From positions 1 through 32,802 of the IMG/VR virus record IMGVR_UViG_3300009180_002083: a stretch of 32,802 bases of DNA. One strand, given 5' to 3'. Shown here in pieces: positions 2-18,559 of the stretch. The notes below the pieces were generated by a model. That model searched no databases and was not told the origin of the DNA. It saw nothing but the letters and a program-made list of their open reading frames with translations. A program made the translations under genes and the position numbers. The first letter of the stretch is position 1; every line of letters begins with the position of its first letter. Source of the stretch: a virus.

Positions 2-655
2 AAAGGTCTGTCAGGACGACACGACATTCCTTTTCCGTTTGAAAGCGAGTTTGCAAGTCGACTAACAATGGGCGACATTGCATATTATGACTACGGTGTT
101 CGTAAGACAGATGCAGAACTTGGAAATGTTAAGTTTAATCATTTAAACACAGAACACTATCACACAGTTCCAAGACTTAACAAGCTGGGTAAAATTCCAA
201 ACAAAACATCGTGGGATAGTTTTAGTTACGCACTAATGATGGGACACAATGTTGAATGTCATATTGTTGCTGTACAACGTGCTCAGCAATTAATGGACAT
301 TGAATGTGAACGGTTCAAACCAGACTGGAGAATAAAAGGTGTTGAGGGTAAAAAAGAAAAAGAATATAGCGATTGGGTTCCAAACAAAATATTATATTTT
401 TCTACATTCATTGAAGAATTATTCAACACTAAGAATAAAGCAGAAGCATTTGATATGATTGACTCTGCACAATTATTCTTAAAGAGTCTAGAAGGTGCTA
501 GACTACAGGGAGGTCCTGCAGACAACGTGTTTAACTCTTTATACACTATTGAAGATTTAGCGCCTGTAAGAATTGGTCCAGACGGGTTGCCGTTGTTTGA
601 TCAACAAGACGACGATAATTTACGTTCGTTAGAGGAAGATATCAATAAGGAATAA
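2..655 (+). CDS. Conserved phage-type protein of unknown function, 5' end cut by window edge
   Basis: The reading frame is open from base 2, and the first in-frame ATG (68) has no ribosome binding site, so this is most likely the C-terminal part of a longer protein that begins outside the window. The visible part is about 217 residues. It has a charged, acidic C-terminus and a central helix-rich stretch. I recognise no catalytic motif and no family. It ends two bases before the next start codon and heads the plus-strand gene run in this window. If the ATG at 68 were real, the protein would be 195 residues. Its upstream half would decide what it is. Confidence 0.7.
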   Translation, partial: KGLSGRHDIPFPFESEFASRLTMGDIAYYDYGVRKTDAELGNVKFNHLNTEHYHTVPRLNKLGKIPNKTSWDSFSYALMMGHNVECHIVAVQRAQQLMDIECERFKPDWRIKGVEGKKEKEYSDWVPNKILYFSTFIEELFNTKNKAEAFDMIDSAQLFLKSLEGARLQGGPADNVFNSLYTIEDLAPVRIGPDGLPLFDQQDDDNLRSLEEDINKE

Positions 656-1468: not shown

Positions 1469-1998
1469 AAAGAAATTACGAATCAGGCATAGCAGACAGT
1501 ATTACATTCTTTACAGGTGTAGAGATTGAGCACACTCCTGCATATGGTATGAAAACTTTATTTGTAACAGGGGTACACGATGCCTATGTAATCATGGAAC
1601 TTGCTCGCAATCATCAATGTAAACATATCTACTTTGGTGCTAATCAAAGTTTTCCTAAACTAGAATTCAACAATGCTGAACAATGGCGTCTGTGGGAAGA
1701 CATGATCTATGTCTGCCTAGATGCAGACGATGAATTTTGGTGTACACTGGATCTAGACCTAGCACAAGTAGAAGGTCTGATTGAAAGCGGCCTTGTTGAG
1801 AAGCGTCAGTTTATTCCGCAGATTTCGGTTAAACTGCCCTATTTACAACAGCTGGGGTATAATGCTACAATAAAGATAGACGACAAAGATTTTAAAGCAA
1901 CTAATCCTGGAGTGTGGTGTCATAACCTCCACGACCTACTTGGTAGAGATCGTTTTACCAGTTGGGATCAATATGGCAAAGATGAGATTATCAAATAA
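1465..1998 (+). CDS. Conserved phage protein, unknown function
   Basis: A 177-residue protein with alternating strand/helix character. Notable stretches are FFTGVEIEHTPAYGMKTLF near the N-terminus, HIYFGANQSFPKLEF in the middle, and SVKLPY plus KIDDKDFKATNPGVWCH towards the C-terminus. These look like conserved turns of an alpha/beta fold, but I cannot name the family. It starts in an ATGA overlap (1465-1468), with AAAGG upstream. It lies two genes before the MutH-like and QueD-like genes, so a link to the deazaguanine or nuclease functions is worth testing but unsupported. Confidence 0.7.
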   Translation: MKRNYESGIADSITFFTGVEIEHTPAYGMKTLFVTGVHDAYVIMELARNHQCKHIYFGANQSFPKLEFNNAEQWRLWEDMIYVCLDADDEFWCTLDLDLAQVEGLIESGLVEKRQFIPQISVKLPYLQQLGYNATIKIDDKDFKATNPGVWCHNLHDLLGRDRFTSWDQYGKDEIIK

Positions 1999-2387
1999 TG
2001 GGAACAAGCCAGTATGCCTCAACCGCAAAGTCAGTTAATCGATTGCAACGTGCAATGAATAACTCCTCTTCATTGAATAGATCAACAAGACAATATGTAG
2101 AAAAATCTCCTATGAAATTAACATTTAAACAAAGAATTCGAAACTGGATAATGGATGATAGCGACGATTACAGTGGAAATGTTATTAGCGTTGACCGCGA
2201 TGGTCCCAACATTCAGTCACAGGGATTTCGATTAAATGTATACGGTGCAGCTGGTGGAACTATTGTTGAAACCACTAAGTATGATCGTCAAAAGGATGAT
2301 CATCGACACAGTCTACACGTGATCACCGACGACAAAGAGCTCGGAGAAGAGCTAGCAAAAATTATCACAATGGAAAGTTTGAGATGA
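1998..2387 (+). CDS. Hypothetical phage protein
   Basis: A 129-residue protein. The first 45 residues are Ser/Asn/Arg-rich and probably flexible. A basic stretch follows (KLTFKQRIRNWIMDD), then a strand-rich part with RLNVYGAAGGTIVETTKYD and a helical C-terminus. Similar short proteins occur in marine T4-like phages, but I know no function for them. It starts in a TAATG overlap with the upstream stop and ends in an ATGA overlap with the nuclease gene. Three GATC sequences lie inside it at 2283, 2298 and 2321. Confidence 0.65.
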   Translation: MGTSQYASTAKSVNRLQRAMNNSSSLNRSTRQYVEKSPMKLTFKQRIRNWIMDDSDDYSGNVISVDRDGPNIQSQGFRLNVYGAAGGTIVETTKYDRQKDDHRHSLHVITDDKELGEELAKIITMESLR

Positions 2388-2968
2388 TTACTCCCACCGA
2401 AACACTTATTCTTAATATTATACGGCATCACTTACTTGGTAGACAATTGCCAAGTAATTTCGGAGGCGATGCTGGAAGAGCTTGTGAAAATTTATTAGAA
2501 GATGACGTTGGCATTTCTATTAACAGAGGATTTGGATGTGATATTCCTGAAATTGATTGGGAAGTTAAATGCCGTAAAGGCACAGCAACCAGTGCGCAAA
2601 CAGTTACAACGATGAGACCTGAAGATATTATTTCAACACCTTATCCACTTTCACCGGTATACAACAAGATTCGAAAACAATTAAGGTTTACAACTAATGA
2701 CAATGATGTTATCATTGCTATAGACTTATGTGACTTTGATCAGCCGCAGATTCAGGATTTGCTTAAAGCAGCCTACGAACACGCTAGGAAACTACTTACT
2801 GAAAATCCTCATTTAGAGTATACTCCTTATAGTGGCTACTGGGGATATTTTGAAAAAACTAAAAAAGATCGACCCGAACTGGATTTTAGATTAGCAGACG
2901 GCCAAATGGAAGACTTGCTTGGGATGACAAAATCAACTTTTAAGGACATATTTGCATATGGTAATTAA
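2384..2968 (+). CDS. MutH/Sau3AI-like endonuclease (PD-(D/E)xK type)
   Basis: A 194-residue protein with the layout of MutH/Sau3AI nucleases. Residues 53-62 read DIPEIDWEVK. D53, E60 and K62 have the same spacing as catalytic D70, E77 and K79 of E. coli MutH, and E35 lies upstream much as MutH E56 does. A later SPVYNKIRKQLRF segment (about 89-101) resembles the MutH strand/helix carrying a second catalytic lysine. The C-terminal MTKSTFKDIF resembles the MutH C-terminus. The length is close to MutH. Members cut DNA in a metal-dependent way, often at GATC, but specificity here is unknown. It starts in an ATGA overlap and overlaps the QueD-like gene by 11 bases. Roles could be host DNA breakdown, repair-type nicking or attack on rival phages. 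Confidence 0.68.
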   Translation: MITPTETLILNIIRHHLLGRQLPSNFGGDAGRACENLLEDDVGISINRGFGCDIPEIDWEVKCRKGTATSAQTVTTMRPEDIISTPYPLSPVYNKIRKQLRFTTNDNDVIIAIDLCDFDQPQIQDLLKAAYEHARKLLTENPHLEYTPYSGYWGYFEKTKKDRPELDFRLADGQMEDLLGMTKSTFKDIFAYGN

Positions 2969-3367: not shown

Positions 3368-3643
3368 ATGGCTAAAAATTATAAAAACGTTTCATATTTC
3401 GAAGATCGGCCAGACATTGTTAAGGTGTTTGACGACTTAGAAAAGTTTAAAGACTTCTGTCGCTTTGAACTGTGTGATTTTAATGAGGCCGATCTCTACA
3501 ACAGAGATAGTCAAGTGTGGAATAATTATTATTATAGCACACGCCCACGTAAGCCACGTGGTGAGTATAACAACAATCGCGGCGAATACAATCGCAGTGG
3601 CAACAACAACTTCCGTCAGCGCAATGACAATTTTTCTCGTTGA
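3368..3643 (+). CDS. Conserved phage protein with Asn/Arg-rich tail
   Basis: A 91-residue protein in two parts. Residues 1-55 form a compact acidic segment (VFDDLEKFKDFCRFELCDFNEADLYNR) of a kind seen in many marine phages next to glycosyltransferase genes. Residues 58-91 are an Arg/Asn/Tyr/Gly-rich tail with two RGEYN repeats, probably disordered and possibly RNA- or DNA-binding. The start at 3368 has AGGAAA just upstream. The 3' end overlaps the next gene by 20 bases. Function unknown. Confidence 0.72.
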   Translation: MAKNYKNVSYFEDRPDIVKVFDDLEKFKDFCRFELCDFNEADLYNRDSQVWNNYYYSTRPRKPRGEYNNNRGEYNRSGNNNFRQRNDNFSR

Positions 3644-4724
3644 TCTAGAATCAGTTGAGACTAGGTACACGGGTCAATGGAAGACTCATGTACCTGCACT
3701 ACTACGAAAGGCTGGCCACGATGTCAACATTATATCAGGTCCTACGGATATTCCTAGTGCTACCACTCCTGGAGCATTTCTCAACTTTGGCGGCACAAAC
3801 ATCTACAAGGCTCGGCAGGTTGAGCAGATGGGTCGTTTATTTTGCAACGGAAGCGTTCGCGCCAATGATCACTTCGTATTTACTGATGCTTGGCATCCTG
3901 GTATCATCAATCTCAAGTACATGAGTGAGTTGTTGGGTATTCCAATAACAACACATGGTCTATGGCATGCTGGTTCGTATGACCCTCAAGACTTCCTAGG
4001 TCGTCTTGTTGGCAATAAGCCTTGGGTACGCAATGCAGAGAAATCATTCTTTTCTGCATTTGATCACAACTACTTTGCCACTGACTTTCATATAGAGATG
4101 TTTAACAGAGAACTATTAAACAATGGGTATAGTGTAGAAAATCCTTGGTATGAAGAAGAACTTAAAGAAATCTTAAACGGAGAGTATCCTAAGTTTGTGC
4201 GTACAGGATGGCCCATGGAATATATGCAGGATACGTTGGAAAACTATTGGACTACTCCCAAGCGTGATTTAATTTTGTTTCCGCATCGTATTGCTCCTGA
4301 GAAGCAAGTTGATATCTTCCGAGACTTGGCCACACACTTGCCTCAATATGAATTTGTAGTTTGCCAAGATACACCATTAGACAAACATGAATATCACAAA
4401 TTGCTAGGTCGTGCTAAAATGGTGTTCAGTGCAAATCTACAAGAGACTCTTGGCATTAGCTGGTACGAAGGTGCTATAGTAGGTGCTATCCCTATGGTGC
4501 CGGATAGATTAAGCTACAGCGAGATGGCATTTGATACATTCAAATATCCAAGCGAGTGGACCGAAAGCTATAGTGCATACGAGGCACATAGGCCAGAAGT
4601 TTGTGCTAAGATTATTCAGTATATGAATAATTACGAAAAATTCTTACCTAGCCTAAATAAACAGGTAGATGTACTAAAAGAAAACTTTTTTAGTTGCAAT
4701 AAACTATTAGAGATGTTAAAATAA
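3624..4724 (+). CDS. GT-B glycosyltransferase (GT4-like)
   Basis: A 366-residue protein with a GT-B layout. The N-terminal domain begins with a short strand (MTIFLVDLES), then Q18-W19 and HVPALLRKAGHDV, the usual acceptor-side fold. The C-terminal domain has HRIAPEKQ (221-228), matching the R-x-x-PEK nucleotide-sugar segment, and E274-x7-E282, the donor-binding motif of GT4 enzymes. Donor and acceptor cannot be read from the sequence. In T4-like phages such enzymes may glucosylate modified DNA bases or act on surface sugars. The frame is open further upstream (from 3465), but ATG 3624 gives the natural N-terminus and only a 20-base overlap with the upstream gene. Confidence 0.82.
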   Translation: MTIFLVDLESVETRYTGQWKTHVPALLRKAGHDVNIISGPTDIPSATTPGAFLNFGGTNIYKARQVEQMGRLFCNGSVRANDHFVFTDAWHPGIINLKYMSELLGIPITTHGLWHAGSYDPQDFLGRLVGNKPWVRNAEKSFFSAFDHNYFATDFHIEMFNRELLNNGYSVENPWYEEELKEILNGEYPKFVRTGWPMEYMQDTLENYWTTPKRDLILFPHRIAPEKQVDIFRDLATHLPQYEFVVCQDTPLDKHEYHKLLGRAKMVFSANLQETLGISWYEGAIVGAIPMVPDRLSYSEMAFDTFKYPSEWTESYSAYEAHRPEVCAKIIQYMNNYEKFLPSLNKQVDVLKENFFSCNKLLEMLK

Positions 4725-4766: not shown

Positions 4767-5510
4767 TTGACAAATAAAGAAACAGGCCTAGACGCAATGG
4801 CAGGCGATGGCGGATACCGAGAAGGCACATTGGCAGGTGCAATCCGCATGAGAATGAGACGTGAAGGAAAACGTTTTTGGGCAGGTGACAACATTAGCGA
4901 TTATGTCACTGACTCTCACAAGGCCAAATTAATCGAAGAAGCAACACCAGCATTTGAACAAGTGCTAGATTGTTTGTTAATAGATCGTGAAACTGATCCT
5001 AACTCGAAAGGCACGGCACGTAGACTGGCCAAGATGTACTTTAACGAAATAATGGCAGGAAGATATGAATCAGCACCAGATGCAACAGCTTTTCCAAATG
5101 ATTCAGCCGACCGTTACGAAGGTATGCTTGTGGTACGTAGTGAGCTACGAAGTATGTGTTCTCATCACCACCAGCCTGTATCTGGGGTTGCCTACATCGG
5201 TATCATTGCCGCTAATAAACTTATTGGTCTCAGCAAGTATACCAGAATAGCACAGTGGTGTGCTCGTCGTGGCACTCTACAAGAAGAACTCTGCAATGAT
5301 ATTGCTCGCGAAATCAGCCGAGCAACTGAATCAGAAAACGTAGCAGTTTATGTGCAGGCCATTCATGGGTGTTGCGAAAATCGTGGCATTATGGCACACA
5401 GTAGTTTAACACAGACTACGGTACTCAAAGGATCATTCAAAGACGATCCTCATACAAAGAAAGAGTTCTTTGATAACATCAAACTACAACAAGAGTTTGC
5501 ACCACGATGA
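4767..5510 (+). CDS. folE: GTP cyclohydrolase I (FolE)
   Basis: GTP cyclohydrolase I opens the imidazole ring of GTP to give 7,8-dihydroneopterin triphosphate, the entry step to folates and to 7-deazaguanine. This 247-residue protein has C131-S-H133-H134 and C202/C203 at the zinc positions of the family, the core NKLIGLSKYTRI (150-161) and ARR (166-168), H200, and the C-terminal TTVLKGSFKDD. The residue after the first zinc cysteine is Ser where E. coli has Glu. The start is TTG 4767, with GGAG (4755-4758) at good distance; the first in-frame ATG (4797) is less well placed. The 42 bases upstream form the largest gap in the first 10 kb. In a phage the likeliest product use is preQ0-type base synthesis. 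Confidence 0.93.
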   Translation: MTNKETGLDAMAGDGGYREGTLAGAIRMRMRREGKRFWAGDNISDYVTDSHKAKLIEEATPAFEQVLDCLLIDRETDPNSKGTARRLAKMYFNEIMAGRYESAPDATAFPNDSADRYEGMLVVRSELRSMCSHHHQPVSGVAYIGIIAANKLIGLSKYTRIAQWCARRGTLQEELCNDIAREISRATESENVAVYVQAIHGCCENRGIMAHSSLTQTTVLKGSFKDDPHTKKEFFDNIKLQQEFAPR

Positions 5511-7359: not shown

Positions 7360-7807
7360 ACTACAAGACGATCCCGAAACAGGTGACTTGATATTGCCTT
7401 TCCCTGAAGATATGCTCAAAGAAACGGGATGGAAAGAAGGTGATGAGTTAGACTGGAAAGATAATCAAAATGGCTCTTGGTCTTTGACAAAAAGAGTGTA
7501 TACTAGTAGTATGAATAATAAAGAAAAAGAAATTCTAGACATTACTCAAGAGGAATGTGCAGAAGTAATTGTTGCTATTAGCAAGATAAGTCGATTTGGT
7601 TTAGATAATGTCAAACCTGGTAAGCCACTTACTAACAGACAACATCTAGCAGAAGAGCTAGGAGATTTACAGGCCATGATCGATCTTTGTATCGATCACA
7701 ATCTAGTAGACAAAGAAGAAGTGATTGTTGCAGCAGGTAACAAAATTGCTAAATTAAAAAAATGGTCAAATATATTTGAAAGTGGGAGTGAACATGAGCA
7801 AGATTAA
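7340..7807 (+). CDS. AbrB-like / MazG-like NTP pyrophosphohydrolase fusion
   Basis: A 155-residue protein joining two domains. Residues 1-52 (GDLILPFPEDMLKETGWKEGDEL) match the swapped-hairpin SpoVT/AbrB DNA-binding fold found in antitoxins and regulators. Residues 58-150 match the all-alpha MazG-like NTP pyrophosphohydrolase: E71-E72-x2-E75 and E105-E106-x2-D109 are the magnesium-binding ExxE and ExxD motifs. MazG-type enzymes split (d)NTPs or ppGpp-type nucleotides. TTG 7340 has AGGAG (7329-7333) six bases before it, which fixes the start and makes the fusion real. An internal ATG at 7511 lacks a good site. It overlaps dCMP deaminase by 20 bases and queE by 14. Confidence 0.8.
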   Translation: MKNWTIELQDDPETGDLILPFPEDMLKETGWKEGDELDWKDNQNGSWSLTKRVYTSSMNNKEKEILDITQEECAEVIVAISKISRFGLDNVKPGKPLTNRQHLAEELGDLQAMIDLCIDHNLVDKEEVIVAAGNKIAKLKKWSNIFESGSEHEQD

Positions 7808-8648
7808 GATAGCGGAACTATTCTACAGCATACAAGGTGAGGGTAGATATATGGGTGTCCCAAGTGTGTTTCTACGTACATTTGGTTGCAATTTTACTTG
7901 CAGTGGCTTTGGTATGCCTCGTGGTGAATTGAGTATGGAGGCCGCTGGTATCGCAGCCACACATTCATTGATTACACCTTTTCAAAAGTATGAAGAGCTT
8001 CCTTTAGTAAGTACAGGGTGCGACAGTTATGCAAGTTGGATGCCCGAGTTTAAAGAACTTAGTCCAATGCTCACAAGCGAAGCAATTGCAGATCGCATTA
8101 TGGAAATTCTTCCACAGGATCATTGGGAATACGAACATTTGGTTATCACAGGCGGTGAGCCATTGTTGGGTTGGCAACGTGCTTATCCAGACTTGATCAA
8201 TAACACTAAGATGCGTGGCCTAAAAGAGATTACATTCGAAACGAACGGTACTCAGAAACTTACTCCGGAGTTTAAAGAATACTTGAGAAAATGGAATAGT
8301 GTAGTGGGCAGAGAACTTACATTCTCAGTAAGTGCTAAACTTCCAGCAAGTGGTGAGACATGGGAAGAAGCTATTTGTCCAGAAATTGTGTGTGAGTACG
8401 AACAAGTAGGCACAGCTTATCTTAAATTTGTAGTGGCAACAGAACAAGATATTGCAGACGCAGAATGTGCTGTAGGTGCATTTCGAACAGCAGGATTTAA
8501 AGGACACGTTTACCTAATGCCAGTGGGTGGTGTAGAAAGTGTTTATACACTCAACGCAAAGAATGTGGCACTGGCAGCTATGAAACGTGGATGGCGTTAC
8601 AGTGATAGACTTCAAGTGCCATTGTTTAAAAATGAATGGGGTACATGA
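7794..8648 (+). CDS. queE: 7-carboxy-7-deazaguanine synthase (QueE), radical SAM
   Basis: QueE converts 6-carboxytetrahydropterin to 7-carboxy-7-deazaguanine. The 284-residue protein has the QueE opening FYSIQGEGRYMGVPSVFLR (10-28), C32-x3-C36, the TGGEP SAM-binding motif (119-123), FETNGT (148-153) and a C-terminal DRLQVPLFK segment. In ordinary QueE the third cluster cysteine follows two residues after the second. Here that position is not cysteine; the next is C76 in TGCDSYASW, which resembles the usual CDTxY segment. So about 40 residues appear to be inserted inside the cluster loop, which also explains the extra length. ATG 7794 has GGGAG (7784-7788) upstream and is preferred over the in-frame codon at 7776. 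Confidence 0.9.
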   Translation: MSKIKIAELFYSIQGEGRYMGVPSVFLRTFGCNFTCSGFGMPRGELSMEAAGIAATHSLITPFQKYEELPLVSTGCDSYASWMPEFKELSPMLTSEAIADRIMEILPQDHWEYEHLVITGGEPLLGWQRAYPDLINNTKMRGLKEITFETNGTQKLTPEFKEYLRKWNSVVGRELTFSVSAKLPASGETWEEAICPEIVCEYEQVGTAYLKFVVATEQDIADAECAVGAFRTAGFKGHVYLMPVGGVESVYTLNAKNVALAAMKRGWRYSDRLQVPLFKNEWGT

Positions 8649-12937: not shown

Positions 12938-12948
12938 ACGGTTTGTTA
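12922..12948. terminator. Candidate bidirectional hairpin between convergent arms
   Basis: TAACAAAC (12922-12929) and GTTTGTTA (12941-12948) form a perfect 8-bp inverted repeat around an 11-base loop. It covers the stop codons of both the last plus-strand gene and the last minus-strand gene. This is where a bidirectional terminator would be expected. The stem is AT-rich and the flanking T runs are short, so termination efficiency is doubtful. Confidence 0.4.
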
Positions 12949-14331
12949 TGGTAATTGTTTACAAGCGTTATAAAATTCCATAAGTTCTGGAAATGTGTTT
13001 TTAAAGTTTGTGCCTCTACGGCGATCATGCTCATCAACAAATTTAACAAAGTCTTTTCTAAATTGTTCTTTTTCTGGGTATCCGTTTTTTATCTTAGATT
13101 CAAATACAGTAAGTACACGCTGTAATTTTTCTACCTCGCTTATAAAAAATCCCATACGATCTTCTTCATTTTTATCGATGTTGTCTTTCATAAAATCAAT
13201 CTGTATTTGTATCTTAGTGATAAACTCCTCCGATAATAATCCCACAACTTGATGAGAAGGATAATTTAGATAGGGGATATCTATGTACACAGAATGATTG
13301 TTGTTTATCCGAGGACTACAATGTTTTCTTTTCAAGACTAAAATATCTTCTAAGAACTGTTGATAACTGATTACACTAAGTAAATTGTAAGTACTCATGA
13401 TATGAATTTGTGAGTCTGGAACAGAGCTAAGATAACGATCGCAATTTGATAACCATTGTTTATAATCCATGCCGTAACGTATGTACTCGGCTTGAGCTCC
13501 ATATGCCTCACAGCTGGTGTAAACCATTATGTTCTTAACAGCTTTCACTGTTTGTATTTTCTGAATTTTTTCAATAAACTCATCCATTAGCTTTTCTGGA
13601 ACACATAGATTGCTGTTTATGCCTAGCTCTAGTTCCGGATTTGGATGTTCTATAATATAGTCTAATACTCTAAAGGTATGTTTAGTCATTAACGGTTCAC
13701 CACCGGTAATTCTAAATGTATGAAGAGTAGGGTAAAGTTCAGGCCACCATTGCCAAAATGCTTCTACATATGGATTTAGATCACGCTCCAAAAAAGGCAT
13801 CTTGTTCTGTGTCTTAATCCATTCTATATTGTTAAATTTCTGACTAGTAGGATATGCTCCAAACTTTTCAATTTCTTCCATCCATTTGCTACTGACATCT
13901 GGGCTACAATAACTACATTTAAAATTACATACATTGCTGAAACTAATTTCTAAATAGCTTGGATTAACATGATTCAGTCCTTGTAGATCAGAAATCCTAT
14001 CCTTACTCCACGGTTCATAACTCTTTAACACTCTATCACTGAGCACATCACCGCGATCTTCTACTTGCCAGCAATATTCACATTCTGTAGGACGTTTGCC
14101 GTTGAGCATATCTAAACGCTGTTCAATTTTAAAAGACGTGTTATGTAACGCACTAGGACTGCGTTTGATTTCTTCTAAGGGTATTAGATGTGTTCTTGGA
14201 TGATGACAACTATGAGTATGACCCGACCCTAAGTGAATAGTAACCTGACTCCACTTGGCTACACAATAGCTAGGACTGATAGAGTCAAGAATTTTTTCTT
14301 TAAAATCTATTCTTTTTTGACGCCATTTCAT
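12946..14331 (-). CDS. Radical SAM protein with N-terminal twitch-like cysteine domain
   Basis: A 461-residue radical SAM enzyme. The cluster motif is C135-x3-C139-x2-C142 (NVCNFKCSYCSP), with ITGGEP (208-213) for SAM binding and a later GINSN strand. N-terminal to it, C23, C42, C84 and C87 (CHHPRTHL and ECEYCW segments) could hold an auxiliary iron-sulfur cluster, as in 'twitch' or SPASM-type enzymes, but placed before the SAM barrel. Such enzymes often modify peptides or proteins, or act in sugar and cofactor pathways. It is the promoter-distal gene of the minus arm, after four glycosyltransferase-type genes. No clear ribosome binding site precedes ATG 14331. Confidence 0.85.
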   Translation of the reverse strand: MKWRQKRIDFKEKILDSISPSYCVAKWSQVTIHLGSGHTHSCHHPRTHLIPLEEIKRSPSALHNTSFKIEQRLDMLNGKRPTECEYCWQVEDRGDVLSDRVLKSYEPWSKDRISDLQGLNHVNPSYLEISFSNVCNFKCSYCSPDVSSKWMEEIEKFGAYPTSQKFNNIEWIKTQNKMPFLERDLNPYVEAFWQWWPELYPTLHTFRITGGEPLMTKHTFRVLDYIIEHPNPELELGINSNLCVPEKLMDEFIEKIQKIQTVKAVKNIMVYTSCEAYGAQAEYIRYGMDYKQWLSNCDRYLSSVPDSQIHIMSTYNLLSVISYQQFLEDILVLKRKHCSPRINNNHSVYIDIPYLNYPSHQVVGLLSEEFITKIQIQIDFMKDNIDKNEEDRMGFFISEVEKLQRVLTVFESKIKNGYPEKEQFRKDFVKFVDEHDRRRGTNFKNTFPELMEFYNACKQLP

Positions 14332-14357
14332 ATGATTATTTAACTTCTGGTTGAGAT

Positions 14358-15416
14358 TTATTTTTTTGTTTGTTGTTCATAATATTCTTTTAACCAATCA
14401 AAATCATTAATCTTTTTTAGTGCTTCTAAATTGTCTTTATTTGCACTGCCATATTCTTTACCCGCTATTGCTCCGGCAATAGCTTCTTGTCCAAACGGTC
14501 GATCAGCACCTAACGTACACCATACATCGAGTCTATGCAACGTTTCTTCACTTTTTTGTCTATCAATAATTTTACTAGATAATTTACAACATTCTCTAAA
14601 GGCTGATTTCCAAGTGTTAAACGAATCAGTGTTAAATGCTGTGATGTTTGATATAGACTTAACTGCTCTAAATTTACTAGATATACTAGTTGTCATGTCT
14701 GGCTTAGATACATCCATACCTATAGCCATTGAAGTCGGTAATAATTTAACTCCTCCATACCCGTAGACTAGATCATTGACGGGATTTTTACTGCGCCAAA
14801 CGTATACAATATCTTGTTCGTAGGCAGATACCTTGTGATCAAAATTAAAATCTTCAACAATTTCAGCATCGCCGTCAACCACCCAAAACATACAGGTTTT
14901 TGCTAGTTTGGCGGCAGCTATGTGAGCTTGATGTATACCTTTAATTCCATGCACTCTTTTGGCTCTTGGAAATTTTAATTTTAAATTAACAAAATTAGCA
15001 TCAGCTGTTGGCTCATTATAACTGATAAACACTATATCATATGGTTCAGCGTTCTTTGGTTTGCTAGCAACTATATCTATTTTTTTATGATTTATATAAA
15101 ATCTTTTTTCAAGTTCTTTGTTACTTACGCCTGAATGTTTTGAGAATAATGCTACACCATCAAAATGATCTGCATTTTTAAAAACATGAATATATTTTTC
15201 ATCCCATTTTGTAACAATATAACCAAAATCAAAATCATCTAAAATAATCACATCATCCCAAACTACCCAAAATAATTTAGTGAATGCTCTGTTGACAATA
15301 TCTGAGAAATTTTTTATATTTTCAATTTTTTGAGATAATGGAAATCTTTTGTTAAAAGATAGCCAATCATCGTCATCAATGGAGTTTTTGCTTACATAAA
15401 AAATATCGTAGATCAT
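14358..15416 (-). CDS. Glycosyltransferase-like protein with an internal duplication (GT-A type)
   Basis: A 352-residue protein. Residues 126-350 are paralogous to the next upstream gene: both carry DIVF-S-Y-EP, RVHGIKG (154-160), a DxD motif (D181-G-D183) and HRL-W-T-GA near the C-terminus. The DxD after a hydrophobic strand suggests a GT-A nucleotide-sugar fold. Residues 4-85 repeat the first part of this fold in degraded form (DIFYVSKN, then WVVWDDVIILDDFDF), implying an internal duplication. The N-terminal copy probably cannot bind metal in the usual way. It overlaps the upstream gene as ATGA (start at 15416). Donor and acceptor are unknown. Confidence 0.72.
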   Translation of the reverse strand: MIYDIFYVSKNSIDDDDWLSFNKRFPLSQKIENIKNFSDIVNRAFTKLFWVVWDDVIILDDFDFGYIVTKWDEKYIHVFKNADHFDGVALFSKHSGVSNKELEKRFYINHKKIDIVASKPKNAEPYDIVFISYNEPTADANFVNLKLKFPRAKRVHGIKGIHQAHIAAAKLAKTCMFWVVDGDAEIVEDFNFDHKVSAYEQDIVYVWRSKNPVNDLVYGYGGVKLLPTSMAIGMDVSKPDMTTSISSKFRAVKSISNITAFNTDSFNTWKSAFRECCKLSSKIIDRQKSEETLHRLDVWCTLGADRPFGQEAIAGAIAGKEYGSANKDNLEALKKINDFDWLKEYYEQQTKK

Positions 15417-16291
15417 TTTAGATAGGTGTTTGTTAAATTTATTGTTTCGTTATACAAGTCTAAGGTATACTTGCTTTGTTTGGGATCTAGATAAGGATAA
15501 TCAAACCCTAACCCGTTCTTGATGCGGTATCCTAAATCCTGTATATCGTGTTCAAGATTACTGTGATTTATATTTTGCTCATAGACATTTCTTAGTATTT
15601 CAAAGTCACGTACATCAACATAATTCCAATCTGTACAGTTAGTCATCCATTGTCCTAGTCTCGCTCCGTGGATAGCATATAACCCGTTTTCTTCGTGGGC
15701 TCCGACTGTGCTCCATATCTTTAGTCTATGTAAGTTGTGCCACCATACTCGTTCTTTTATCTCGTCGGCCGGAATACGTACTCCGTCTAACAAGGTCATT
15801 TTCACCCCTTCGCGGAATCCTGCTCTCCATGCCTGAAAAGGTGAGCCTGTGATAACCGTTTCACTATAGCATTCTTTGAATTGTTGATATCCATGCTCCC
15901 AACAAAAATCTACCTGACCACGATCACTGTCTGAGTTTTCGTGTGTTTTCATATTTAGGATGAAATCTTTACGCCAAATTTTAAGTCCGCCATTGCCATA
16001 TCGTAATCCATTGATTTTATTACGTGCTAACCAGCTGACTACTTGTAAATTTTTTTGATCAGGATCAAACTCTGTGTTAAAAAATTTTGTGTCAACGATG
16101 TTGTCTGCATCTACAGTAATAACCCAATCTGTTTCTGATTGTCTTGCAGCTTCTTTATGTGCTTCGTCGCTGCCTTTTATTCCGTGTACTCTTTTAGCCC
16201 AAGGAACTTTGTTGCATAGATCTGCATAATGCAGATCTGCATTAGGCTCATCATAGCTTAAAAATACAATATCTAATTCTATGATTTTCAT
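15413..16291 (-). CDS. Glycosyltransferase-like protein (GT-A type)
   Basis: A 292-residue protein, paralogue of the downstream gene. It begins with a strand (IELDIVFLSYDEPNADLHYA), has RVHGIKG (34-40), a strand ending in D61-A-D63, a glycine-rich YGNGGLKIW segment, and HRLKIWSTVGAHEENGLYAIHGA near residue 195. These features fit a GT-A fold in which the DxD binds metal and nucleotide sugar. The enzyme class is inferred; the family is seen in marine phages mostly without a named function. ATGA overlaps join it to both neighbours. Confidence 0.72.
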   Translation of the reverse strand: MKIIELDIVFLSYDEPNADLHYADLCNKVPWAKRVHGIKGSDEAHKEAARQSETDWVITVDADNIVDTKFFNTEFDPDQKNLQVVSWLARNKINGLRYGNGGLKIWRKDFILNMKTHENSDSDRGQVDFCWEHGYQQFKECYSETVITGSPFQAWRAGFREGVKMTLLDGVRIPADEIKERVWWHNLHRLKIWSTVGAHEENGLYAIHGARLGQWMTNCTDWNYVDVRDFEILRNVYEQNINHSNLEHDIQDLGYRIKNGLGFDYPYLDPKQSKYTLDLYNETINLTNTYLK

Positions 16292-16878
16292 ATTTTTTCA
16301 AAAACATAATTTTTTAATATTCTTCTTGTAAAAATACTAAATCGATTGTGGGAGCCTGTGTAGATAAACTCTTTGGAACTTTCTTCTAAATCTTTTAGTT
16401 GAAACGCTATTATCTGGAAAAGATTATGTGGATCATTATAGGCTGTGATGAAAAACTGCATTTCAGTGTTGCCTGCCCATTGAATCTTTCTAGTCTTAAT
16501 CGAACTATGCAAAACAAAAATTATTTTATTTTCTAATTCATTGTATTGAATTATAACATCATTTTTTTGATTGCCTACATATTTTTTATCAATTACTCGG
16601 TGCAGCACATCGTCAATTTTGACAAGACTGTGTTTGGTAACAATTTCAACTGTTTCAGAATCTATATCTACAAAACAAAAACTCATTTGAATTATTCCGT
16701 TATGTATATCTTCTGCTAGCTCTCTATCAATTTTTATTTTATATTGTTTATCATGAGCAGCAGGATCGGGATAAATTCCAGTGACTTCACCAGTAGTAGG
16801 TTCAAAAATTGCCCAGTATTCTACCTGTGGTGCAATATACTGCTGTAACCAACTGTCAAAATCAATTATTTCTTCCAT
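16288..16878 (-). CDS. Hypothetical phage protein in glycosyltransferase cluster
   Basis: A 196-residue protein, strand-rich throughout, beginning MEEIIDFDSWLQQYIAPQVE and containing YWAIFEPTTGEVTGIYPDP. No catalytic motif, signal peptide or membrane segment is visible. Its start (cat at 16876-16878) has AGAGGAAA upstream on the minus strand. It overlaps the upstream glycosyltransferase-type gene by 13 bases and the downstream one by four, so it is made together with them; it may be an accessory subunit, but this is only positional. Confidence 0.65.
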   Translation of the reverse strand: MEEIIDFDSWLQQYIAPQVEYWAIFEPTTGEVTGIYPDPAAHDKQYKIKIDRELAEDIHNGIIQMSFCFVDIDSETVEIVTKHSLVKIDDVLHRVIDKKYVGNQKNDVIIQYNELENKIIFVLHSSIKTRKIQWAGNTEMQFFITAYNDPHNLFQIIAFQLKDLEESSKEFIYTGSHNRFSIFTRRILKNYVFEKI

Positions 16879-17705
16879 AATATTTCCTCTAGAATGCTGA
16901 TGATTTCGTCGGTTACGTAATTTTTTTCGTTGTAATGAACAATATCTTGTTGCTGATAATTTCCAATTTTTAATTTACCTTGCAGATCAAAATAAAATCC
17001 AACATGATCAGAAACTTTGTCGGCAGGCCAAGGCCAATTTTGTATCATTGGTTTTAAATGTACCACTCTAGGAAATTCTAAATCATAACTGATATCATCT
17101 TGAATGTCTAAAATTTTTGCAGCTAAACTAAATGCTTCGTCGGTACCTACCACTTTTGGAAGATAATTTCCTAAGAATAGATTTTTAAATTCATTAGGAT
17201 TTTTTAAAATATGTCTACCTAATGAAAAGAATTCTTCGGATAATTTAGAATCTTTTTTAAAGAATGTGTAAAAAGAATATAAATTGGGGAGATCGTTATG
17301 TTCAAATGTTTTTCTATAATATGAATCTTTTACAGTCTCTCCGCGATAAGTATATGCCTTGTTGGGAATATATAATTCAGAGTTCTCAATAAAGTACTTA
17401 ACCCAATGACTGTAGTCTCTAAAAAACAACATGTCTGCATCTAAGCATATGGTGTGATCCCAAGGGCTTAGTTTATCCATCCAACTTCGACCATCCCAAA
17501 AAGTTTCTTGATTCCATTCAATAACGTTATTAAACACCCAAGGACTTTTTAGTTTTTCAACATCTTTAATATTATCGGTTACCAATGCTACTTTGTCAAA
17601 TCCTTTTCGCTGAGTATTTTTAATGCTTAGTGCTAAAGCATAGGCCAATTTCAAATAGTCAACTGAATCGTTTTTAGAAACTACAATTAGGTATCCAAAA
17701 GTCAT
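16866..17705 (-). CDS. Glycosyltransferase-like protein (GT8-like GT-A)
   Basis: A 279-residue protein with the marks of a GT8-like GT-A enzyme: an N-terminal strand (YLIVVSKN), a helix YALALSIKNT, VALVTDN, then WDHTICLDADMLFF with D89-x-D91 as the metal and nucleotide-sugar motif, and GTDEAFSLA (187-195 region) further on, a typical acceptor-side element. A conserved late histidine occurs in VVHLKP. GT8 members transfer glucose, galactose or related sugars with retention, but no donor can be assigned. The related upstream gene (17702-18559) has a similar layout and overlaps as ATGA. Confidence 0.75.
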   Translation of the reverse strand: MTFGYLIVVSKNDSVDYLKLAYALALSIKNTQRKGFDKVALVTDNIKDVEKLKSPWVFNNVIEWNQETFWDGRSWMDKLSPWDHTICLDADMLFFRDYSHWVKYFIENSELYIPNKAYTYRGETVKDSYYRKTFEHNDLPNLYSFYTFFKKDSKLSEEFFSLGRHILKNPNEFKNLFLGNYLPKVVGTDEAFSLAAKILDIQDDISYDLEFPRVVHLKPMIQNWPWPADKVSDHVGFYFDLQGKLKIGNYQQQDIVHYNEKNYVTDEIISILEEILWKK

Positions 17706-18559
17706 AGTATCTCCAAAAATTCTTTTGCAGTTCTAATTATACTTTGTTTGTTCATTACATGGACGTCTAGATCTTTAATGGATGCAATGACCACTTGATC
17801 TTCACTCATATTGTCATTTAGGTAAACACGCAATTGATTTTTACCAACAGAATGAATTAGATCTTTATCTAACAGTGTTAATATCGGAGGGAGATTTTCA
17901 GCTCCGGTATCGAATCCATTAAGCATATGTTTTGCTATGCTAAAAGCAATGTCATTTCTGTATTGTTTAGGATTAAATCTAAATAAATCTGCAAAATAAT
18001 TATAATTTGTACGAATAACATCTACTAGATCAAAAAATATTTTAGATTCATTGTTTTTAGTAAACATCACTGTGGTTGCCCAGTATAACGGAATTCCGGT
18101 TTCAGAAACCCAAGAATCCAAAATACCTTTTCTATCTCCCCTAACATCTTGCATAGCCGGAGATAGCATTACATTTGAATTAACATCCCAATACTCATTA
18201 AGCCTGTTAGACATTATTAAAAAATCACTGTCTATTAACAATGTTCTATCATATGGAGTAAGATCCCAAACTGAGGCTCTATTTGAATTTATAAAAGGAA
18301 CTGTTTTAGAAGTGTATCCATCGTTGAGTACTCGAATATTTTGAGTAACAGGTTTTTCAATTTCTATAATTTTATCAAAAATTTCTTGAGAAAGATCATA
18401 GATATTGGAAGTTTGCATCCATTCTACTGTAGACTTGTCAACTACTAAAGATACTGGAACTTGCAGATTTGTTTTTGCAAACTTTGCAGATACCAAAGAC
18501 ATTAAAGCATAATCAATATCTCTACTGTTGTGTGCAAATATTAATATTCCGTTTTTCAT
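17702..18559 (-). CDS. Glycosyltransferase-like protein (GT-A type)
   Basis: A 285-residue protein of the same general kind as its downstream neighbour: MKNGILIFAHNSRDIDYALMS opening, VPVSLVVDKST, then YDRTLLIDSDFLI with D110-S-D112 in place of DxD, and PKQYRNDIAFSIA resembling the GTDEAF element. The order of elements fits a GT-A fold. The variant DSD still supplies two carboxylates. Sequence-level function is unknown. ATGA overlaps at both ends place it firmly in the late minus-strand operon. Confidence 0.7.
   Translation of the reverse strand: MKNGILIFAHNSRDIDYALMSLVSAKFAKTNLQVPVSLVVDKSTVEWMQTSNIYDLSQEIFDKIIEIEKPVTQNIRVLNDGYTSKTVPFINSNRASVWDLTPYDRTLLIDSDFLIMSNRLNEYWDVNSNVMLSPAMQDVRGDRKGILDSWVSETGIPLYWATTVMFTKNNESKIFFDLVDVIRTNYNYFADLFRFNPKQYRNDIAFSIAKHMLNGFDTGAENLPPILTLLDKDLIHSVGKNQLRVYLNDNMSEDQVVIASIKDLDVHVMNKQSIIRTAKEFLEIL

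Follow-up and report, generated by a model that had tools for sequence, protein, structure and literature searches.

A predicted MutH-fold nuclease as an exchangeable neighbor of candidate 7-deazaguanine DNA modification genes in phages

The phage sequence analyzed here (IMG/VR record IMGVR_UViG_3300009180_002083, positions 1 to 32,802; hereafter, the window, that is, the whole stretch) encodes a predicted nuclease of the MutH fold within a conserved gene array that also encodes enzymes of 7-deazaguanine precursor synthesis and, probably, a divergent DpdA. Comparison of related loci shows that the nuclease is an optional, exchangeable accessory module, with the modification genes being the stable part of the array. 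Most likely, the nuclease would cut unmodified DNA of the host or of rivals, and deazaguanine would shield the phage.

The nuclease ORF is a real gene that evolves under purifying selection (dN/dS of 0.09-0.13 in comparisons with three relatives). Its start codon overlaps the stop codon of the preceding 129-aa ORF as ATGA, and the two genes are probably translationally coupled (Table 1). Used as a single query against Pfam, PHROGs, NCBIfam and the PDB sequences, the nuclease protein gave no relevant match. A protein search of IMG/VR yielded 13 close relatives, and a degenerate DNA pattern for the motif D-h-P-E-x-G-x-E-h-K recovered remoter ones, along with true Sau3AI-like genes. With a profile built from the gathered relatives, 59 nuclease loci were delineated on IMG/VR contigs, with 27-100% identity; no relatives were found in INPHARED or in GTDB genome contigs. 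A fold match in BFVD from Synechococcus phage S-CAM7 was rejected as a family member when the family HMM gave no confirmation.

Table 1. Features of the window and ParB/DGQH-like genes of related loci
Feature	Position	Strand	Remarks
C-terminal 217 aa of ~545-aa TGT/DpdA-like protein	2..655	+	N-terminal part lies beyond the window start
c175, conserved neighbor, 177 aa	1465..1998	+	in 45/54 nuclease loci; no family match
129-aa ORF	1998..2387	+	stop overlaps nuclease ATG
Predicted MutH-fold PD-(D/E)XK nuclease	2384..2968	+	194 aa, ATG start; predicted catalytic E35, D53, E60, K62, K95
c132, conserved neighbor, 131 aa	2958..3353	+	phrog_17812
~365-aa protein, GT-B glycosyltransferase-like by eye	3624..4724	+	in 41/54 loci; no Pfam/PHROG match
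GTP cyclohydrolase I (FolE)	4767..5510	+	Pfam PF01227 E 4e-39; phrog_2197 E 6e-45
QueE-like radical SAM protein (7-carboxy-7-deazaguanine synthase)	7776..8648	+	phrog_2076 E 7e-50
ParB/DGQH-like genes	L101:4884-6011, L130:4039-5028, L134:4495-5577, L120:4450-5604		GIY-YIG-like/HNH genes near some

The sequence-only reading of the window proposed a MutH/Sau3AI-like active site on the basis of E35, D53, E60 and K62, and these residues indeed occupy the positions given. The D-x6-E-x-K spacing on which it relied is weak when taken alone, as it arises in 5.7% of shuffled versions of this protein, but conservation lends it weight. Across 37 diverse aligned members of the family, which are 27-92% identical to the window protein, no variation occurs at G31, D53, E60, K62, R64, S70, T73, K95, R101 and R169, and at least 90% of the members keep E35; because D53, E60, K62 and K95 persist in relatives down to 27% identity, the motif is beyond chance. 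A divergent homolog (L236) carries D in place of E60, and two members of the alignment have additional sequence, the size of a hairpin, that separates the D from the ExK motif. Insertions at this point are common across this nuclease superfamily.

Structural modeling and profile comparison support the assignment of this family to the MutH fold among the PD-(D/E)XK nucleases. An AlphaFold model computed on the 37-member alignment reached a pLDDT of 92 and a pTM of 0.85, whereas 11 close relatives alone gave a poor model (pLDDT 41), a failure cured by the diverse alignment. The best Foldseek matches of the model in the PDB are MutH-DNA complexes (E 1.5e-5 and 3e-5, prob 1.00), including 2aor_B (E 1.5e-5, prob 1.00, TMq 0.64), and for E. 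coli MutH (2azo_B) the TMq is 0.71 over the nuclease query; Sau3AI and DpnI rank after MutH. Thus, prediction returned a MutH-type fold rather than one unrelated to PD-(D/E)xK. In a profile-profile comparison with a purpose-built MutH/Sau3AI reference alignment (hhalign E 5.1e-8, prob 94.8, 152 columns), E35, D53, E60, K62 and K95 pair in the same order with all five catalytic residues of MutH, E56, D70, E77, K79 and K116, which agrees with the earlier assignment of fold and active site.

The affinity to MutH itself is limited. The Pfam MutH profile (PF02976) is the sole match recurring in more than two family members, but it detects only 7 of the 37, all under the gathering cut-off (best E 0.008), and it matched neither the window nuclease nor anything in a genome search. 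Furthermore, Glu91 of MutH, invariant in the reference alignment, has no counterpart in the phage proteins, where the corresponding region (TSAQTV) contains no conserved acidic residue. Because Glu91 is not conserved, we place the family beside, not inside, MutH/Sau3AI, and we do not propose that it is specific for GATC.

GATC as the target, also suggested in the sequence-only reading, finds no backing in the avoidance analysis either. The GATC sites cited in that reading (2283, 2298 and 2321) are present, and GATC occurs 151 times in the window, yet this is only slightly above expectation (observed/expected ratio, O/E, 1.12), and the median GATC O/E is 1.04 whether the nuclease is present (20 contig sets) or absent (8 contig sets). 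More generally, no 4- or 6-base palindrome is convincingly depleted in the nuclease bearers alone (smallest p 0.009, uncorrected), so that specificity could not be read from an avoided site. This absence of avoidance is what would be expected if the phage DNA is protected, and it fits equally well with a different target or with tight regulation of the enzyme. AAGCTT and GTGCAC are strongly depleted in related contigs with and without the nuclease (median O/E of about 0.14-0.18). Among 24 related records, a search for methylases of the D12/Dam type gave none above the cut-off, with a positive T4 control.

Clustering of ORFs across 54 nuclease loci revealed a conserved gene order: DNA polymerase, a 246-aa gene, the ~545-aa gene, c175, nuclease, c132, an 85-aa gene, the ~365-aa gene, FolE and QueE. 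In 46 of these 54 loci, the nuclease is preceded at close range by the ~545-aa, DpdA-like gene. In the window, only the C-terminal part of this gene is present, with 90% identity to the final 217 aa of a full-length relative (L005:2635-4269). The TGT motifs DSGG(F/Y)Q and FDCASP are present in the family, and neither catalytic Asp residue varies across 23 sequences. By hhalign, phage proteins with a TGT-domain annotation are linked to the family (E 8e-8 and 5.5e-11), as is E. coli TGT, weakly yet collinearly (E 0.0015). No link to the DpdA of phage 9g was detected with hhalign. Searches for PF01702 (TGT) were negative, as was the 9g positive control, and because this control failed, these negatives say nothing about DpdA. 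Single-sequence seeds of 9g DpdA and of T4 beta-gt, alpha-gt, gene 42 and dam gave no matches in the related genomes.

In Vibrio phage 2.275.O (L192), a homolog of the DpdA-like protein heads a cluster with genes for preQ0 reductase, a transporter, a queuosine biosynthesis protein, FolE and QueD. The gene is also present in PA5oct and related Pseudomonas phages, with QueE nearby in PA5oct. Given the TGT motifs, the hhalign links and the preQ0-gene surroundings, the ~545-aa protein is probably a divergent DpdA with predicted transglycosylase activity. In cultured jumbo phages, the protein is annotated as hypothetical (L190:13995-15617, gp168 of PA5oct; Paride, Callisto, MIJ3; Phosso, L191; Vibrio phage 2.275.O, L192).

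The deazaguanine-precursor genes recognized in the sequence-only reading are genuine, with FolE and QueE both identified by profile searches (Table 1), and their proposed coupling to DNA modification is strengthened by the DpdA-like gene upstream of the nuclease. QueE is encoded in 35 of 60 nuclease-bearing records. QueD was detected in G001, G018, G022 and G033, in the last three of which FolE, QueD and QueE co-occur with the DpdA-like gene, and QueC is clear in G001 only, together with QueD; several further hits to QueC in related genomes were weak and turned out to be other PP-loop proteins. Absences of pathway genes carry little weight because many of the contigs are fragments. The ~365-aa glycosyltransferase-like protein could act on the modified DNA. 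In the QueE-like protein of the window, the second and third of the presumed cluster cysteines are separated by a long insertion (CNFTC and, about 40 residues on, GCDSY). Elsewhere in the window, beside tail-fiber genes, several ORFs of the region 12946-18559 (- strand) resemble glycosyltransferases, and a radical SAM protein with a twitch domain is also encoded there.

An independent scan for DpdA-like proteins, performed with one seed protein and retaining the best 80 of 282 loci, shows how loosely the nuclease is tied to this gene. Among the 43 DpdA-like loci with enough downstream sequence or with the nuclease found, the nuclease is present in 8 and absent in 35; owing to the single seed and the retention of the best 80 loci, 8 of 43 is not a population frequency. 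In the nuclease-lacking records that were searched again, the nuclease was not found elsewhere on the contig. The histories of the two genes are discordant as well: L013 and L107 share 91% identical DpdA-like proteins but only 34% identical nucleases, whereas in L008 and L011 the nucleases are 84% identical and the DpdA-like proteins 39%. Hence, there is no sign of matched specificities between the alleles. All gene pairs at the locus are only weakly correlated (Mantel r 0.17-0.36), and therefore the whole region recombines.

Conversely, 8 nuclease loci lack the DpdA-like gene despite several kb of upstream sequence. Two of these contigs (L101 and L102) still encode QueE. In L110, three tandem Eco57I-type N6-adenine methyltransferases lie directly upstream of the nuclease (one tested, Pfam E 3.5e-15), an arrangement that favors the need for some protective modification; in L120, L130, L131 and L134, the available sequence contains neither DpdA nor a known modification gene, which weighs against such a need. 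The three methyltransferase-like paralogs of L110 (L110:1593-5414, ~385 aa each) have near-identical N-termini and differing C-termini, and the set looks like a specificity-switching array. Four of the DpdA-lacking loci (L101, L120, L130 and L134; Table 1) also encode a protein of 330-385 aa with ParB/DGQH-like motifs (recognized by eye, no Pfam match), whose gene either immediately precedes the nuclease or is separated from it by one gene. With most DpdA-like loci devoid of the nuclease, some nuclease loci devoid of DpdA, and discordant histories, a strict two-gene version of the pair suggested in the sequence-only reading is not supported, and we rejected a co-inherited, fixed pair.

The explanation that we prefer, and to which we assign about an even chance, is that the phage exchanges guanine in its own DNA and the nuclease attacks DNA lacking this modification. 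A single-domain MutH-fold endonuclease would cut or nick DNA at a short site that probably contains guanine. It would be co-expressed with an operon encoding the DNA polymerase, a clamp-like protein, the DpdA-like transglycosylase, FolE and QueE, which would make a 7-deazaguanine base and swap it for guanine in the phage DNA. Modified sites would resist the nuclease, leaving unmodified DNA as the target. The host chromosome would be attacked first, providing nucleotide salvage and host shut-off, as with T4 endonucleases II and IV, and competing phages or plasmids might be cut as well. In favor of this explanation are the MutH fold with its five predicted catalytic residues, the prevalent upstream location of the DpdA-like gene, the unavoided palindromes of nuclease-bearing genomes, and the methyltransferases found in place of DpdA in L110. 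The frequent lack of the nuclease in DpdA-like loci and the discordant alleles count against it. Of this picture, the fold, the catalytic residues, selection, synteny, the pathway genes and the swapping come from the computational results, and catalytic activity, sequence preference, the modification and the protection are inferred. We also put forward, tentatively and with somewhat more doubt than belief, that the array functions as a restriction-modification-like module in which base exchange by the new DpdA-like family, rather than methylation, protects the phage, and interchangeable MutH-fold nucleases destroy all unmodified DNA in the cell.

The main rival to modification-discriminated cutting, which we consider unlikely, is that the nuclease is mobile cargo, an endonuclease of the homing or recombination-promoting type that spreads by cutting relatives with an empty slot, its DpdA surroundings being incidental. 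The slot beside c175 is indeed mostly empty in nuclease-lacking relatives, or else is occupied by an HNH endonuclease, a 2OG-Fe(II)-like ORF or an uncharacterized ORF; the nuclease lies before c175 in some loci and after it in others; its alleles do not track those of DpdA (L013 and L107); and other loci combine the nuclease with GIY-YIG-like and HNH genes. However, the fold is that of the short-site enzymes MutH and Sau3AI and is no known or classical homing fold, the gene is inserted inside an operon with apparent translational coupling, and the family recurs beside DpdA in otherwise diverse phages. The HNH endonuclease-like ORFs in the slot were observed in L266 (9506-9922), L269 and L242 (11233-11658).

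Exclusion of competitors alone, whereby superinfecting phages or satellites would be cut and the host chromosome spared, appears improbable: the allele diversity at a single slot resembles an arms race, and other genes in the slot likewise encode nucleases, but host DNA would be equally unmodified, and the present data cannot separate this scenario from host degradation. Least probable by our estimate is a mismatch-repair or replication-coupled nickase, a MutH analog that would nick new phage DNA with the modification as the strand signal, for although the single-domain fold is nearest to MutH itself and the DNA polymerase gene lies only a few kb upstream, most relatives that share the replication module lack the nuclease, no MutS or MutL gene was noticed nearby, and no Dam methylase was found in the 24 related records.

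The T4 logic, the MutH fold and the deazaguanine modification pathway were all known beforehand; the combination of a nuclease with deazaguanine, and a 545-aa DpdA-like family with a nuclease slot, were not found in a limited literature search. So far, the known role of phage deazaguanine modification is passive, namely, shielding the DNA from host restriction enzymes. If modification-discriminated cutting is correct, deazaguanine would also license the phage's own nuclease, yielding a T4-like offensive system built on guanine, and this would offer an explanation for the complete deazaguanine pathway in some phages. Because PA5oct, Paride and Callisto are Pseudomonas phages in culture and carry the DpdA-like gene, the modification half of the proposal can be put to a direct test.

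Among known systems, MutH (of E. coli and H. influenzae) and Sau3AI share with the phage nuclease the predicted fold and the five catalytic residues E/D/E/K/K in the same order, but at only ~15% identity, with the phage family below the Pfam MutH cut-off and lacking the invariant Glu91. Sau3AI consists of two domains, whereas the phage nuclease has one and is not accompanied by a GATC methylase. The loci described here share FolE, QueE and, probably, a TGT-superfamily transglycosylase gene with the 7-deazaguanine modification systems of phages (9g, CAjan, and DpdA2 of Vibrio phage nt-1; PMC6884629); the further pathway genes QueD and QueC were found in relatives. The ~545-aa family is undetected from 9g DpdA. 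In CAjan, dpdA-dependent deazaguanine shields the DNA from restriction enzymes, and a search of that paper for words starting with 'nuclease' turned up no nuclease partner of the modification (PMC6884629). In T4, nucleases spare the phage's own modified DNA and attack unmodified host DNA (PMC6071114). The logic proposed here is the same as that of T4 endonucleases II and IV with hydroxymethylcytosine, but T4 relies on cytosine chemistry, whereas guanine chemistry and a MutH-fold enzyme are proposed here, and the functional likeness is putative. Type II restriction-modification systems, such as that of Sau3AI, likewise place a nuclease beside a self-protection function, and L110, with Eco57I-type methyltransferases next to its nuclease, is the exception to the lack of D12/Dam methylases in the 24 related records. 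Unlike in those systems, the protector presumed for the phage loci mostly works by base exchange, and the two genes are not passed on together as a constant unit.
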